Assembly: GCA_009887095.1 (NCBI GenBank)
Contig: QXYC01000019.1
Span: forward strand, 1 to 64,000
Direction of reading: 5' to 3'
DNA from: Candidatus Poseidoniales archaeon
Lineage (GTDB): Archaea; Thermoplasmatota; Poseidoniia; Poseidoniales; Poseidoniaceae
DNA: 64,000 nucleotides
Below the pieces are notes generated by a model, which saw only the letters and a list, made by a program, of their open reading frames with translations, did no database searches and was not told the DNA's origin. Position 1 is the first letter of the stretch, and each line of letters opens with the position of its first letter. Below are positions 57,417 to 64,000 of this stretch, in pieces. The translations under genes and the position numbers were made by a program.

Positions 57417-60374
57417 TCAGTCAAAGAAATCGTCGAACTCATCGGCTGTGTTTTTGGCACTAGATCTTCTGTTTCGTGCAGCCATGACTCGCTTCAACCT
57501 CTTTCGCTTTTGGAGAAGCAACGGGAGTGAGATGATTGAGATCACGAGCATTGCAATGGTTGCGATGCCAGTTGTAGTGAACTCGTCTTCCTGCATGTAA
57601 TCATTGAGCGTCCCGAGCCATTCAACACCGAGAGGCGGCTCTGGTTCAGGCTCCGGTTCAGGGATGAGGTGTTGGTAGTAGTTCCACCACTGGTCTTCAA
57701 TGACAACTCGCTCTACATTCGGAGATGGATAATTGGCAACGGTCTGCTCGTTCCCGACGCTATCTATCGGTGCGAGAATGAAGTAGTAGGTTCTGAGCGG
57801 GCGGATGTTCGAGTCCTCGATGCCAGATGTGTTGTACGTACCTTGCTCACCGGGGGTTGAAGGCATGTTGGTTGCAATCGGAGTCAAGAAACGGAGGTCG
57901 ATGTCGACAGGCTTTTGTTCGATCATGTAGAGATTCCAGTACAATTGACCGTCTGCCTCTTCAGCTGGCCACATCCATGTCAGGTTCAAATCGTAACACA
58001 TGTTCCAGTCATTGATGATTTTGTAGCACTCGGTATCGTTCGTGAAGGTGGATGTGTGTTGGAAGTTTGTGATGCTTGAGACAGGAGGGACAGCGTCGCC
58101 ACAGAAAGCGGTTGCTTGGCCGTTTTCATCAAGACTCACGTTGATGTGTTCAAAATCAGGCTCTCCTTCTCGGTTGGCAGGCATGACTGCATACGATGCA
58201 CAATCGCCAGTTGCAAGTGAGACAGGGTCGATCCATGTGTTCTCTGATGGGTCGATGGATGCAACGAGGGATTCTGCAGTCAATTCGTTCCAGATGAATT
58301 CATTGACACCATTGCTTGGATCTGGGAACAGGGTGCCGGCTTGTTGAATCACAAGAAGTTTGTAGATGTTCCATCCTCCGACATACGGGTTGGTTTCATC
58401 ACCAGATGCCGTCCAGTTAAGTTGCAATTGCCCACCTTCGAGTTGGGTGCTCGAAATCGGTCCTGCGCTAAGGTTGACAGCAGGTGAGTCACCGATGATC
58501 AGGATGACACCGTTGGTGGCCAATCGGACATCAAAGGTCCCGTCTTCATTGGCTGTGTAGTCATCCAAGTAACTCCAGATGTAATCTTCCATGGTCGGGA
58601 GGTAGCGTATATCAACCGTTTCCAGTGGAATGTTTTCTGGCAACAACTCGCTCATGTTGAGTTGGATGTCCATCCAATCCATGCCCACTTCTGCAGAGTC
58701 GTCGACGGTTGATAGAATCTCGAAGGAGAGCAAGAAGAGCGGTTCTTTTCCTTCTCCAATTCCGTACGAGGTGCCGAGGACTGGGAGTGAGGACTCGAAC
58801 TGTAAGTAAGCCGAAGACCGGGTCACCGCTTGTCCTGAGAACAAGTCGCCATTATCAAGCGAGATGTAATTGAAGACAGTAATATCTTCGTGAGCTGATT
58901 CGAGTTCACCAAAGTAATCGGTCACTCGGAGGGTGATAGTGTGGTCGCCGAGGCCCAGGTCGCCCCCTGAGACATTCAATTGAGAACCGTAACCAACATT
59001 GATGATTCCAGAAACCCACCATGAATAGTTGAGCGGTCCCGCAGCGGTCGAGGAGGTCCGTGCATTCATCAAAATGTACTCGCCTGTTGTGTAGGTGCCT
59101 GTTGAACTCGTTTGGTCGATGTTGGCATTGATTGATCCTGCAACAAGATCGGCTATTTCAGTCAAGGCATTGTTGGTGAACTTGCCTTCAGAACCTTCAT
59201 CGTGAGTCGATGGCACTTGAATTGTAAGCGTTCGTCCGTCGCCAACGGTTGTGATGTCGAAGGTGCATGTCCGGGACTCTCCCGGGCTGAATACGGTCAG
59301 CACGCATGTTGTTTCATATTCCACTTCCCCAATTGGGTCGTAGACTTGGAAAGCCACCGATACCATGTCAATCGTCATGTTGCCAACGTTGGAGATGGTC
59401 GCCGTCACCATTTCATCGCCGAAGTAGTAGTCCTGTGAAGTGATGTCGTGAGAAGGAAGCATCGATGTGGCTTGCAAATCGATGGTGTCGTCGAAGACAA
59501 CGGATGTGGATGTGATATCGTTGCTTGAATCAAGGTCGCCATACGGTGTGCCTGTGCTATTAAAGAGGCCCCATGTGAGTATGAAGTGTCCTTGGTTCAC
59601 GCTGCTCAGAGGCGGTAAGGCTCGGGTGAATGCAGATTCTCCACCCCATGAGGGAAGGTTTTCTACGACTGTGTAGGCCTCGTCGATGAGGATTGGAGGG
59701 TTTTCGAGGTTGTGCAGTTGCCAGCCGAGAGTCGCCTCAAGATTGCAGGTGCCGCATGCATTGACTGTTCCTTTTGCATCAATTGTGTAATCTGTGTTTG
59801 AGTTAAGAACTGTTTGTCCGTCGTACGTGGCGACGCCTTGGATATCTTCCAAGGGGTTGTATGCTTCGTTTACACTCACATCAACATACGACCGTGTGAG
59901 GTTGATGTTGAATACTAGCATGTCATCACTGGCGTCTTGGTCGTTCAATGTGAACGCATAGACAATGGTGAATGTGCCTTCATCGCCAGAAGGATTCCAT
60001 GCAGAATCGGCGGTTACATTCACAACGTTACCGGGATAAATGGTTGTACTTGTGAATGATCCAGAAGCATCGGGTGATGATTTGCAGATGGGCCCAGTCA
60101 TGACACCTTCACACGCATACCACTTGAGAGCACGGTTCGTACTGGTCCCAAGGCCTTGATTTTCAAGCGTGGCTGTGAAATCAATTGGAGTCCATGATGA
60201 GGCCCATGTGTCGGAGATTGGATGTTGAGACTCCACAACAGCAAGGTCGCCAGATTCAGCGGCTGATGCTGCAGGGATGGTTAGCAATCCTGCAAAAGAA
60301 GCCAACAGGAGCACGGCCACCATTGAGAGAGAGCCTGTTTTTTGGCCGCCTTGAGGTCGCGTCCGCTTCGACAT
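57417..60374 (-). CDS. Large membrane-anchored surface protein
   Basis: A signal peptide (SLSMVAVLLLASFAGLLTIP) opens a protein of 985 residues. The exterior is mainly beta-rich, with Ig/CARDB-like stretches such as SWTPIDFTATLENQGLGTST and VTATISNVGNMTIDMVSVAF, and a fibronectin-like part (GGQLQLNWTASGDETNPYVG). Asn-rich sequons are frequent. A C-terminal span (GIATIAMLVISIISLPLLL) is followed by a strongly basic tail and the acidic end DEFDDFFD. An S-layer or adhesin role is plausible. There is no PGF motif, so it is held by the span itself. Confidence 0.8.
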   Translation of the reverse strand: MSKRTRPQGGQKTGSLSMVAVLLLASFAGLLTIPAASAAESGDLAVVESQHPISDTWASSWTPIDFTATLENQGLGTSTNRALKWYACEGVMTGPICKSSPDASGSFTSTTIYPGNVVNVTADSAWNPSGDEGTFTIVYAFTLNDQDASDDMLVFNINLTRSYVDVSVNEAYNPLEDIQGVATYDGQTVLNSNTDYTIDAKGTVNACGTCNLEATLGWQLHNLENPPILIDEAYTVVENLPSWGGESAFTRALPPLSSVNQGHFILTWGLFNSTGTPYGDLDSSNDITSTSVVFDDTIDLQATSMLPSHDITSQDYYFGDEMVTATISNVGNMTIDMVSVAFQVYDPIGEVEYETTCVLTVFSPGESRTCTFDITTVGDGRTLTIQVPSTHDEGSEGKFTNNALTEIADLVAGSINANIDQTSSTGTYTTGEYILMNARTSSTAAGPLNYSWWVSGIINVGYGSQLNVSGGDLGLGDHTITLRVTDYFGELESAHEDITVFNYISLDNGDLFSGQAVTRSSAYLQFESSLPVLGTSYGIGEGKEPLFLLSFEILSTVDDSAEVGMDWMDIQLNMSELLPENIPLETVDIRYLPTMEDYIWSYLDDYTANEDGTFDVRLATNGVILIIGDSPAVNLSAGPISSTQLEGGQLQLNWTASGDETNPYVGGWNIYKLLVIQQAGTLFPDPSNGVNEFIWNELTAESLVASIDPSENTWIDPVSLATGDCASYAVMPANREGEPDFEHINVSLDENGQATAFCGDAVPPVSSITNFQHTSTFTNDTECYKIINDWNMCYDLNLTWMWPAEEADGQLYWNLYMIEQKPVDIDLRFLTPIATNMPSTPGEQGTYNTSGIEDSNIRPLRTYYFILAPIDSVGNEQTVANYPSPNVERVVIEDQWWNYYQHLIPEPEPEPEPPLGVEWLGTLNDYMQEDEFTTTGIATIAMLVISIISLPLLLQKRKRLKRVMAARNRRSSAKNTADEFDDFFD

Positions 60375-60501
60375 TGACCAGTGCCTCGCAGGGGGGATTC
60401 AAAGACTCATCGCCCCCGAAGGGGGTTGTGACCCCCGAATTTGACATTCCTTGCCCCCTCCATCCGGCAACCTCTTGAAGCGCCGAACACCACGGACATC
60501 C

Positions 60502-61590
60502 ATGCGCAGGAGGCAGGTTCGTTCGCTTGAACGGGATGAAACCGCTCTGACCGCCGTGATTGAATTCTTGTCGGCATTTGCTCTGTTCCTGATGATCCTC
60601 ACCGCCTTTTTGGCGCTTGCCCAACTCCAGATGGGTTCGAATGACCCAGCGGTTGACCGATTGGACCGTTCTGCGGTGCAAGGTCTCGATCGCCTCACTT
60701 CTGACGGGGGTTGGTTTGTTCCTGGGAACGAATCGGCAATGGATTATGGCAATGCCACCGCAGATTGGCATCTTCAAGACGCTGAAGCCCTCGATGAAGG
60801 GCGTGTTCAAGCCGGTCTTGTCGTCGATGGGGCATTGAGCATGGCAAAGATCAACGCTATTCAAAACATCACCGAGGGTGATTTAATCGATGGACTTGGG
60901 CTCGATGAGGGCTTTTCCATTCATCTTTCAATCGAAGTGATTGCAAGCAACGCCAGCAGCCGGGTGGGCGCACTTTTGTTTGACAGTGGTACGGAACGAC
61001 GCACTGCTTCTGCTTCTTCAACAGCAAATCGACAATTCATACAGGATGGAGAAACTTGGCAAGTTGTTCTTGAAGTTCACAAGGGTGGGCGCCTCAGCAA
61101 TGACCTCCACCTTGCCGAGGTTATGGCCCGCCCTGCAAACGGTGGGCCCGAGTGGATTGAAATCTATAATCCGAATGACTTCGCCATTGCCCTACGCGGT
61201 TGGTCGCTGAATCATACCGGTTCCACAATGAACTCCGACTACCTGTTCAAATCCGGTGTAATCGCTGGAAAAACAACCCTCCTTCTCACAGGAGACGCGA
61301 CCTCTCAAGCGACTGGAAACGCATCCCAAGTGATTGACCTAGGCCTCCTAGGTTTCCTTGGCGTCGGCATGTTCAACGGGCTGGAAGACGGTACCGGGGA
61401 ACTGAGGCTTCGATACACTCAGTTAGACGAAGCACGACCGTATGATGTATCCAAAACTGGATGGGGCGGCGATACTCAATTGTTCATGATCGTGGGCCAA
61501 TCGCTGGCATGGGATGGAAATTCGAGCGCAATGACCTCTTGGTACATCGATGATACGCCGACACCAGGCGACCCAAACGACGCTGTTTGA
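60502..61590 (+). CDS. Pilin-like protein with lamin-tail domain
   Basis: The N terminus RDETALTAVIEFLSAFALFL followed by MILTAFLALAQLQ resembles an archaeal type IV pilin or prepilin segment: a charged residue pair before a long hydrophobic helix. The middle part is unassigned. From about residue 205 a lamin-tail domain is seen (DLHLAEVMARPANGGPEWIE, IYNPNDFAIALRGWSLN, ATSWYIDD-type end). LTD domains occur in secreted, DNA- or surface-associated proteins. I take the ATG at 60502; the frame is open to 60451 but that part looks non-coding. It is followed 71 nt later by the KaiC-like operon. Confidence 0.72.
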   Translation: MRRRQVRSLERDETALTAVIEFLSAFALFLMILTAFLALAQLQMGSNDPAVDRLDRSAVQGLDRLTSDGGWFVPGNESAMDYGNATADWHLQDAEALDEGRVQAGLVVDGALSMAKINAIQNITEGDLIDGLGLDEGFSIHLSIEVIASNASSRVGALLFDSGTERRTASASSTANRQFIQDGETWQVVLEVHKGGRLSNDLHLAEVMARPANGGPEWIEIYNPNDFAIALRGWSLNHTGSTMNSDYLFKSGVIAGKTTLLLTGDATSQATGNASQVIDLGLLGFLGVGMFNGLEDGTGELRLRYTQLDEARPYDVSKTGWGGDTQLFMIVGQSLAWDGNSSAMTSWYIDDTPTPGDPNDAV

Positions 61591-61661: not shown

Positions 61662-62453
61662 ATGTTTCCCATGCAGCCAGCCGCAGTTTACACCCGAGAC
61701 CGATGCGTCACAGGTATTCACGGGTTGGATGAAATTCTGCGCGGTGGTATCCCCTATGGTTCAACAGTGCTTGCTGCAGGTACGTGTGGTTCTGGAAAGA
61801 CCACGCTGGGTATGGAATTCTTAGTTCGAGGCGCACTTGCTGGCGAAGCGTGCGCTCACTTTACGGCAACAGAACCTTCGGTGAAGCTTCTTGAAAACAT
61901 CCGTCAATACGCGTTTTTCGACATGAACATGGTCGATTCCGGGCTGATCAATGTCTTCGATATGGACGTTCTGTATTCATGGCTTGGTCTCGAGAAGGCC
62001 TCGTTTGAACTCGACGACGTCCACGCTCTCATCAAGGCCATTGTGGACATTGTCAACACCATCGGTGTGACACGCTTGGTCATCGATTCGGTGACCACTC
62101 TCTGTTACAAAATCAAGTCCGAGCAGTTGATTCGTGACTTCCTGTTCACGCTTGGTAAGAAACTCGCAACCCTCGGTTGCACAACCATCCTCATTTCGGA
62201 GATTACCTCTGCCACTGAAAATGCGCACTGGTCCTCGTTTGGTGTTGAAGAAGCAATCGCAGATGGCATCATTGTCATGGGTGACGTGGAACGAATGGGT
62301 CACCTGCTTCGCTTCTTACAAGTGGTCAAGATGCGAGGTACTCACCACAGCCGTGCAAAACACGCCATCGAACTTACGCCCCTTGGCGTCATGTTGACGC
62401 CAATGCTGAAGTGGGGCGCACAAAGCGACAAAACAGCTCGTTGGGGGTCATGA
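61662..62453 (+). CDS. KaiC/RadA-like ATPase, intact P-loop
   Basis: The RecA-fold protein of 263 residues opens with VTGIHGLDEILRGGIPYGST, a KaiC signature. Walker A is AAGTCGSGKTTLGMEF and Walker B is TRLVIDSVTTLCYK. Further along, TTILISEITSATENAHWSSFG and EEAIADGIIVMG match KaiC C-terminal elements. It has one RecA domain, so it is not a full cyanobacterial KaiC. The ATG at 61662 is used; the one at 61671 is equally possible. It overlaps the next gene by ATGA. Archaeal KaiC-like ATPases include ArlH of the archaellum and light- or signal-linked proteins; the role here is unknown. Confidence 0.85.
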   Translation: MFPMQPAAVYTRDRCVTGIHGLDEILRGGIPYGSTVLAAGTCGSGKTTLGMEFLVRGALAGEACAHFTATEPSVKLLENIRQYAFFDMNMVDSGLINVFDMDVLYSWLGLEKASFELDDVHALIKAIVDIVNTIGVTRLVIDSVTTLCYKIKSEQLIRDFLFTLGKKLATLGCTTILISEITSATENAHWSSFGVEEAIADGIIVMGDVERMGHLLRFLQVVKMRGTHHSRAKHAIELTPLGVMLTPMLKWGAQSDKTARWGS

Positions 62454-63040
62454 TGATGTTCGAATTAGATCAAAGAATTGCGGAACAACTCACAGAAGTC
62501 GCTCTGAACAGCGCAGTTCAAGTCCGATGTGGCAACTCAAACGCCTTCATGGTCACAGCAAGCACCATTATTCCACTCATGCAAATGTTCGAAATGGGTG
62601 GCGTCTACATCAGCGCCAATCGTGGTGCTGTGGAAATCATTCAAGCGTTCGAGTCAATCGGCATGGATGTTTCTAACATCCAATTCATCGATCTCGTTTC
62701 TTCCGGAATTTTGGGAGGTACCGATGTGCCATACTCCAACATCCACTTTGTAGACAGCCCAATCATGCTTGAATCAGTCTTGCTACGAACGCTTTACATT
62801 CTCCGCACAACGACTTCAGTGCGCAACTTTGTGTTCCTCGACAGTGTCAACGCCCTCGCAATCTACAACGAAGACCGCATCTTAGCAGAATACCTTCACA
62901 CCTTCATCAACACCTTCCGCCAGCGAGAAATCCTCTCGGTTGTGCTCAATGTACCAGACCAAACCCCTCCATTGGTGCTGTCGAACTTAGATTTGTACTG
63001 CACTGACTTAATCGATCGAGGTCAGGTCGTTATCCACTGA
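62450..63040 (+). CDS. RecA-fold protein lacking a P-loop (KaiC-like paralog 2)
   Basis: The protein of 196 residues resembles the RecA core of its neighbour but has no Walker A: the region around CGNSNAFMVTASTIIPLM replaces it. A Walker-B-like strand VRNFVFLDSVNALAIYN and a C-terminal strand set (ILSVVLNVPDQTPPLVLSN) keep the fold pattern. It is likely not an ATPase and may be a regulatory or structural partner of the first protein. It starts at 62450, overlapping the upstream stop by ATGA. The next gene follows after 11 nt with a GAGGTGA SD. Confidence 0.75.
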   Translation: MMMFELDQRIAEQLTEVALNSAVQVRCGNSNAFMVTASTIIPLMQMFEMGGVYISANRGAVEIIQAFESIGMDVSNIQFIDLVSSGILGGTDVPYSNIHFVDSPIMLESVLLRTLYILRTTTSVRNFVFLDSVNALAIYNEDRILAEYLHTFINTFRQREILSVVLNVPDQTPPLVLSNLDLYCTDLIDRGQVVIH

Positions 63041-63051
63041 GGTGAACAGGC

Positions 63052-63855
63052 ATGGCACGAAAGTTTGATTTTGATCCCGAGGATGAGGAGTTCTTCAGCA
63101 AGGTTGGTTCTTTTGGCGTGCCAAAGTTCGACAATGAAATGCGGGGGGGCATTCCTCGTGGATTCACCCTTATTGCGTTCACAGACACAGGTTCTGGAAG
63201 TGAATTGTTTGCAAAGCAGTTCACTTCGCCCGCAGAAGAGTCAGAAAACACCCTCTACATTTCCACAAATGAAGGACAGGCAGAAATCGTCCGTATTTTC
63301 CAGAAGTACAGTTGGCCAATGGACATCAACGTACGAACCATCGGTGAAGAGTACAACTCGACGGTCTTGGAGCGTGAACTTCTTGCCAGCCGATATCGGC
63401 TCGAAGGCTTTCAACTCGCTGACATTCAACGACTCGCACAAACTCGGTTTGTCGACGACACAAACCAAGATTTTTTGACCGAAGTAACCAATGAAATCAT
63501 GGCACTCGGGCCTTATTTCCGTGCTGTGGTTGACAGCCTCGACTTTTTCCTACAGCGTGAGGATCCCGCACGTGTGGTGGCGATGGTCCGCATGCTCCAA
63601 GCTCACGCACAACTCCATCGCGGTCTTCTGCTCATCTCCGTTTCAACCAACGGTCTGGACCCTGCTATCAAGCAAGAACTGTCGACCATTGCTGACATGG
63701 TGCTCTCGTTCAAAGTACGAACCATCGGTACGGATTTCGAAACTTCGATGATTGTTTCTAAGTTCCGAAACGCGCCTGAAAACTTGAAGATTCTTGTTTT
63801 CCGTGTGACACCAGAGGAAGGAATTACTCCGGAAACCGTCGAGCGTATCGCTTGA
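63052..63855 (+). CDS. KaiC-like paralog 3 with degenerate P-loop
   Basis: Residues 15-35 match the KaiC start (FGVPKFDNEMRGGIPRGFTL), but where the P-loop should read GSGKTT it reads TDTGSGSELFAKQF, so the catalytic lysine and Thr are lost. A Walker-B-like strand YFRAVVDSLDFFL and LHRGLLLISVSTNGLDP follow. Length 267. ATG at 63052, with GAGGTGA six nt upstream. It forms an operon with the two preceding genes, and a further gene starts seven nt after its stop. Confidence 0.8.
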   Translation: MARKFDFDPEDEEFFSKVGSFGVPKFDNEMRGGIPRGFTLIAFTDTGSGSELFAKQFTSPAEESENTLYISTNEGQAEIVRIFQKYSWPMDINVRTIGEEYNSTVLERELLASRYRLEGFQLADIQRLAQTRFVDDTNQDFLTEVTNEIMALGPYFRAVVDSLDFFLQREDPARVVAMVRMLQAHAQLHRGLLLISVSTNGLDPAIKQELSTIADMVLSFKVRTIGTDFETSMIVSKFRNAPENLKILVFRVTPEEGITPETVERIA

Positions 63856-63861
63856 TGGTCG

Positions 63862-64000
63862 ATGGAGCGCACCGCTGTTGGTGTCCTTTTTCACAGCGAC
63901 ATGTCCAAAGAGGTCGGCACGCGCCACATCCCCATGGGAGCCCGTGATGCAACAGGTGGATACGACCCCTCCGGCATTGATTTGGAAGCATGGACAATTC
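63862..64000 (+). CDS. N-terminal fragment of an unrecognised protein (3' end outside window)
   Basis: The frame reads MERTAVGVLFHSDMSKEVGT onward with DATGGYDPSGIDLEAWTI and stays open to the window edge. It starts seven nt after the KaiC-like paralog 3, in the same direction, so it is probably part of that operon. No family can be named from 46 residues. Confidence 0.5.
   Translation, partial: MERTAVGVLFHSDMSKEVGTRHIPMGARDATGGYDPSGIDLEAWTI

Follow-up and report, generated by a model that had tools for sequence, protein, structure and literature searches.

What could be the role of three consecutive KaiC-like genes, only the first of which appears to code for a working ATPase? The question is raised by a 64,000-nucleotide stretch of DNA, referred to as the window, which belongs to contig C11 (ending at position 64723) of a Poseidoniales genome from family f1 that is 68% complete. 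Hereafter f1 and f2 are two families of Marine Group II (MGII), other f-codes are Thermoplasmatota families, g-codes are Poseidoniales genera, and G-, L- and C-codes are genomes, loci and contigs, respectively. The MGII locus set contained 80 named loci, every one from Poseidoniales or Euryarchaeota records. The phylum was sampled partially, with one genome per species, and the motif table derived from this sample covers 50 P1, 49 P2 and 54 P3 proteins, as the products of the three genes are designated here.

An earlier note on this DNA had described three adjacent genes on the same strand, sharing the RecA/KaiC fold and including a single intact GSGKTT in the first of them. All of this was borne out (Table 1), with the fold being assigned to P1 by its PF06745 match and to P2 and P3 by predicted structures.

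Table 1 Features of the KaiC-like locus in the window (the curated cut-off of PF06745, the KaiC family, is 26.6 bits).
Feature	Position	Strand	Basis and remarks
P4, pilin-like membrane protein with lamin-tail (LTD) domain	60451..61590	+	PF00932, 42.5 bits
P1, single-domain KaiC ATPase	61662..62453	+	PF06745, 176.8 bits (above cut-off)
P1 Walker A GSGKTT	61788..61805	+	sequence; GxGKTT in 50/50 P1 proteins
P1 K223-M-R225	62328..62336	+	HMMER alignment onto KaiC CI pair K224/R226; kept in 50/50
ATGA overlap, P1 stop/P2 start	62450..62453	+	sequence; alternative P2 start 62456
P2, KaiC-fold pseudo-ATPase (predicted)	62450..63040	+	PF06745, 20.9 bits (under cut-off); AlphaFold2 model and Foldseek
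Shine-Dalgarno (SD)-like TGAGGTGA for P3	63038..63045	+	sequence; overlaps P2 stop codon
P3, KaiC/ArlH-like protein with degenerate P-loop	63052..63855	+	PF06745, 57.2 bits (above cut-off); model and Foldseek
P3 degenerate Walker A GSGSEL (S for Lys, E for Thr)	63190..63207	+	sequence, alignments
P3 E74	63271..63273	+	aligns with second Glu of the KaiC EE pair; kept in 54/54
P3 K237-F-R239	63760..63768	+	HMMER alignment onto the matching KaiC CII K-x-R motif
UbiE/MenG-like methyltransferase, start	63862..64000	+	runs on to contig position 64680; outside the conserved module

Judging by its motifs, P1 is an intact KaiC ATPase. Every element expected of such an enzyme, namely a Walker A of the GxGK[T/S] type, the catalytic Glu, the Walker B Asp and the trans-acting K-x-R, is found in all 50 proteins of the phylum motif table as GxGKTT, T-E, D-S and K-x-RG, and residues K46, T47, E71, D142, K223 and R225 are invariant in the phylum sample. 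The NCBIfam ArlH model scores 34.6 bits with P1, below its equivalog cut-off of 215.

P2 is predicted to be a KaiC/RecA-fold pseudo-ATPase. Its PF06745 score lies under the cut-off, and the KaiC assignment was made by predicted fold: the AlphaFold2 model obtained from the MGII alignment (pLDDT 74) has PH0284 and the CI domain of KaiC as its best PDB matches in Foldseek (E-values of 2e-6 to 4e-6). None of the 49 P2 proteins in the phylum sample has a P-loop, the catalytic Glu or K-x-R, and the C-terminus is short; the Walker B-like Asp (D-S) is retained by all of them. The claim that P2 had lost the whole Walker A region thus holds for the P-loop but goes too far, as the first core strand and helix remain and what is absent is the P-loop between them together with the N-terminal KaiC signature. 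In L043, the MG-II chromosome record CM001443.1, the P2 gene contains ambiguous bases, which read as XXXXX.

P3 is likewise predicted to be a KaiC/RecA-fold protein, its AlphaFold2 model from the MGII alignment (pLDDT 77.5) matching KaiC at 8e-13 and FlaH (4yds) at 1e-11 in Foldseek. It possesses the KaiC-type Glu and K-x-R but not the Walker A motif: the Glu and a downstream K-Q are present in 54/54 proteins of the motif table, and K237 is invariant in a 25-member phylum alignment. In the MGII proteins examined, the Lys position of the P-loop is occupied by S, A, M, C or I and followed by E or D, and is never Lys. Throughout the phylum sample the Lys is absent in 43 of the 54 proteins and present in the other 11 (10 from MGIII and one from f19), three changes being counted at this position on a tree with an outgroup, and an acid stands at the Thr position in 52/54. 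Describing this as a K-to-S change, as was done earlier, is incomplete because MGIII and f19 proteins have the Lys, and the constant feature is the acid. Solitary P3 proteins of f8 and f18 (L212 9066-10013 and L215 8475-9452) carry a charged N-terminal extension of about 60 residues.

In KaiC, the K-x-R motif reaches over the subunit interface to the ATP of the neighboring subunit. Read against this arrangement, the motifs indicate that P3 has lost the cis half of the ATP site and kept the trans half, and that P2 has lost both. Both proteins combine a KaiC fold with lost ATPase motifs, as do inactivated KaiC proteins (iKaiC), their inactivity being predicted from the sequences and models.

The genes are tightly spaced. 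The ATGA overlap between P1 and P2, noticed earlier, holds only if P2 starts at the first of three in-frame ATGs, and the spaced start of P3 is indeed preceded by a ribosome-binding-like signal, with the qualification that it runs into the P2 stop codon. In a set of 89 related loci, the spacing is mostly -4 or +1 to +3 nt between P1 and P2, and mostly 9 to 13 nt between P2 and P3. The gene cut by the window edge had been taken for the fourth member of the operon; when the sequence beyond position 64000 was read, it turned out to encode the methyltransferase, which was rejected as a module member since other genes replace it in f2, f3 and genus g9 of f1. It is the upstream gene P4 that is conserved as the fourth one, lying before P1 at loci from both MGII families.

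P4 has an alternative ATG start at 60502 and an N-terminal segment, ALTAVIEFLSAF, resembling the N-termini of archaeal pilins, which are recognized by a hydrophobic stretch and a leader that is short, polar and contains a prepilin-peptidase site. In a motif scan, many MGII P4 proteins showed segments of the type [AG][LMV]TAVIEFLSAF and f20 showed KKG-ISRIVEF, and no match of P4 to the Pfam pilin families was found. Divergent from P4, a gene for a large CARDB-type surface protein (57417-60374, minus strand) is found in 14 of 16 trio loci and is replaced in genus g16.

The same gene order was found in other Poseidoniales, as had been suggested, in both MGII families: P4-P1-P2-P3 is invariant in 16 representative loci, with varying flanking genes. 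P3 is encoded by 114 of 194 Poseidoniales genomes, the carriers being nearly all f1 genomes and 19 of f2, in genera g14, g16, g18 and g21. MGIII relatives, detected with the P2 profile, have P1-P2-P3 in the same order, and so do seven further families (f26, f20, f13, f24, f35, f6 and f16), one of the f24 genomes being a single contig of 1,486,778 bases. The P3 profile matches 110/243 Thermoplasmatota genomes at E<=1e-10. P2 and P3 are separated by one gene in f20 and f13 and by a different one in two f16 loci (L221 and L226), where a gene of about 190 codons unlike MetOD1 occupies the interval; in f20 (L209 8284-9396) and f13 (L210 3751-4872) the intervening gene codes for the signalling output domain MetOD1 (PF18546). 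P3 occurs without adjacent P1 or P2 in f8, f18 and f19, P1 and P3 without P2 in f39, and P1 and P2 without P3 in f38, f30 and f37, so an obligate trimer of strictly fixed composition cannot hold for every family.

An 84-protein tree, built by a quick method and containing some long branches, places each paralogue on one side of a branch (96 for P3, 99 for P2 and 89 for P1). The degenerate partners P2 and P3 are ancient and conserved across Thermoplasmatota, and a trio that is both ancient and under constraint implies that the two degenerate proteins have functions. As the set of one active and two inactive proteins has been kept across the phylum, a functional heteromer of P1, P2 and P3 is plausible, judging from the sequences.

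The gene neighborhood offers indications of what such a unit might act upon. In f20 (L209), a distant P4 homologue lies upstream of the trio (78.7 bits with the P4 profile, LTD 44.3 bits), and in f2 (L121) an archaeal pilin gene of the PF07790 family directly follows P3. The genome search also located PF07790 pilins adjoining P3 in G017, G044, G130 and genus g9 of f1 (G147) and adjoining P2 in G247 of f7, while in G373 of f38 P1 and P2 are followed by a pilin gene which is the sole PF07790 match of that genome. Each of the 14 genomes checked has only 1-8 such matches and, by informal judgement, the repeated adjacency of module and pilin is therefore unlikely to be due to chance. The same search found no pilin neighbor of the trio in MGIII and most other families. 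Other neighbors are an EarA-like regulator (PF07381), which immediately follows P3 at two loci of f16 (L219 4479-4829 and L220 8835-9170), and transporters near the trio in f24 and MGIII. A conserved gene of about 141 codons without a Pfam family lies directly upstream of P1 in MGIII (for instance L193 8588-9010) and is itself preceded by an OPT-type transporter gene.

Within Poseidoniales the distribution of the trio matches that of a secretion ATPase of about 413 aa (f1, g14, g16, g18 and g21) and not that of archaellin, a match behind which there may be few evolutionary events. At the phylum scale such co-occurrence says little, as the T2SSE family is present in 205/243 Thermoplasmatota genomes. 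A Tad-like secretion locus adjoining RPA-like genes (L153 7808-10751 on G000:C27, L154 and L155) shares its Poseidoniales genera with the trio and includes two small platform-type genes (one of which matches T2SSF), a T2SSE ATPase gene (412 aa), TadC-like genes and a conserved gene of about 125 codons without a family.

Taken together, the reading we favor, to which we give about an even chance, is that P1, P2 and P3 make up a heteromeric unit with P1 as the sole ATPase, switching a type IV pilus; we infer the complex, the action of P3 on P1 in trans and the pilus as the target. The three proteins would function as one unit, most probably a hetero-oligomer whose subunits have the KaiC fold, within which ATP would be hydrolysed by P1. 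The pocket of P3 is lost (no Lys, and an acid at the Mg-binding Thr position) but its K-x-R is kept, so through this face P3 could cap, or complete, the site where a neighboring P1 binds ATP. P2, having neither P-loop nor K-x-R, may serve as a structural or adaptor subunit which breaks the symmetry of the ring or provides a docking point for partners. The pilin-like P4 would work together with the unit in MGII. Pilin neighbors favor type IV pili as the target of the switch, and the unit probably switches pilus assembly or activity, or else pilus gene expression, in response to the ATP state of P1. This would resemble the way in which the archaellum motor is controlled by ArlH, a KaiC-like protein that regulates the motor ATPase ArlI.

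The trio might instead be a general signal-transduction hub in which KaiC proteins, both active and inactive, pass signals on to a range of outputs, pilins being one of them, an idea reportedly put forward by Makarova, Galperin and Koonin in mBio in 2017. We consider this possible but rather unlikely. The contexts do vary as such a hub would have it, with MetOD1 in f20 and f13, the EarA-like regulator in f16 and transporters in f24 and MGIII, and members of P2 and P3 match the uncharacterised haloarchaeal Pfam families DUF7090, DUF7504 and DUF7125, the first of which is present in Haloferax volcanii; a search for haloarchaeal relatives in a plasmid collection gave no match for P2 and generic KaiC only for P3. 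A category of iKaiC is, moreover, named in PMC5847659. Left unexplained are the repeated adjacency of pilins, given how few pilin genes a genome has, and the coupling to P4 in MGII. A smaller probability is assigned to P2 and P3 being independent of P1 and merely co-expressed with it for separate jobs, for example as DNA-repair mediators like RadA/RadB paralogues: although P3 is solitary in three families and the MGIII trio lies near RadA and RPA genes, RadA neighbors the trio elsewhere in one f16 locus only, the order and near-overlap of the genes are preserved phylum-wide, and P2 and P3 each retain family-specific invariant residues, which makes this improbable.

That P3 is a diverged ArlH working in an archaellum with P1 and P2 is suggested by its best NCBIfam match, which is ArlH, and by the structural match to FlaH. 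The score of 56.7 bits is, however, far from the equivalog cut-off of 215, the ArlH branch lies outside P1 and P3 in the 84-protein tree, and a separate ArlH-like gene with an intact GGGKS adjoins an archaellum-type ATPase gene in the same genome (G000:C31). Besides, g16 has the trio without archaellin, and g13 and g20 have archaellin without the trio. The role of an archaellum component was rejected on the strength of the genome's own ArlH and this phylogenetic profile, and we regard it as largely refuted and very unlikely. As for recent decay or an assembly error, two outcomes that the earlier note had named as objections did not occur, Foldseek having placed both P2 and P3 in the RecA/KaiC fold and no MGII P3 examined having a normal P-loop, which excludes recent decay; identical motif states are shared by tens of MAGs, the single-contig genome G002 and several families, and this explanation was rejected as having next to no probability.

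KaiC-type proteins have mostly been studied as homo-hexamers, such as those of the cyanobacterial clock and ArlH, and a set of one active member and two degenerate ones, passed down vertically, would mean that mixed KaiC assemblies are built in archaea too. Residues K46 of P1 and E51, E74, K237 and R239 of P3 would be handles on the control of an active neighbor by a pseudo-ATPase, and the unit would be a candidate for regulating the surface filaments of marine archaea that are abundant but uncultured. Relatives within this phylum whose genomes are closed or nearly so also carry the module, which makes experiments possible.

Several known systems resemble the trio in part. ArlH (FlaH) has a single KaiC domain, is the closest NCBIfam model of P3 and acts on a type IV filament machine, but it binds ATP, whereas MGII P3 has lost the P-loop Lys and Thr, is not its orthologue according to the tree, and neighbors an active paralogue and a second pseudo-ATPase. 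The cyanobacterial clock protein KaiC differs in having two domains (CI and CII) where P1, P2 and P3 have one each, and the circ_KaiC model reached 96.5 bits, its cut-off being 546. In Elongator, Elp4, Elp5 and Elp6 are three different RecA-like proteins forming a hetero-hexameric ring, and Pfam weakly links P3 to Elp4 (PAXNEB; L214 9884-10627 scores 28.2 bits where the cut-off is 28, and other P3 also match weakly) and P2 to Elp5 (Iki1). These matches are partly common to ordinary KaiC and possibly reflect shared RecA ancestry only, and PDB profile searches found no Elp4 or Elp5 chains, so Elongator ancestry was rejected and the likeness is an analogy. A further parallel is the A-type ATP synthase, where a subunit without its own P-loop lends a trans-acting residue to its active neighbor; it belongs to another ATPase family, and the corresponding role of P3 toward P1 is predicted from sequence.

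Closer to the KaiC family, inactivated KaiC domains are termed iKaiC in PMC5847659, which cites Makarova et al. 2017. They have degenerate ATPase sites in KaiC-fold domains and proposed signalling roles, as well as the DUF matches mentioned above, but in the trio one active KaiC is accompanied phylum-wide by two distinct degenerate types, and the order of the genes is fixed. KaiC ATPases (arCOG01171, 01174 and 01175) are encoded near archaeal type IV pilus loci according to the portion of PMC4858521 consulted, the KaiC gene adjoining pilus genes as in the trio; that portion describes KaiC ATPases, some with DEATH-like or KaiB-like partners, and no trio with two pseudo-ATPases. In Haloferax, CirA and CirD affect motility and cell shape (PMC13286277) and have intact Walker motifs (PMC3941300). 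No description of the P1-P2-P3 trio was found in the literature searched, an earlier mention being possible in Makarova et al. 2017. Inactivated KaiC proteins and links between KaiC and pili are thus already known in general, and the fixed trio adds to them. Tentatively, and with the odds somewhat against it, one may go further and see here a phylum-old heteromeric KaiC machine, an ATP-dependent switch of type IV pili made of one catalytic subunit and two pseudo-ATPases, one donating trans-acting residues and the other breaking symmetry; if so, it would be the KaiC-family counterpart of Elp456 or of the A and B subunits of ATP synthase.
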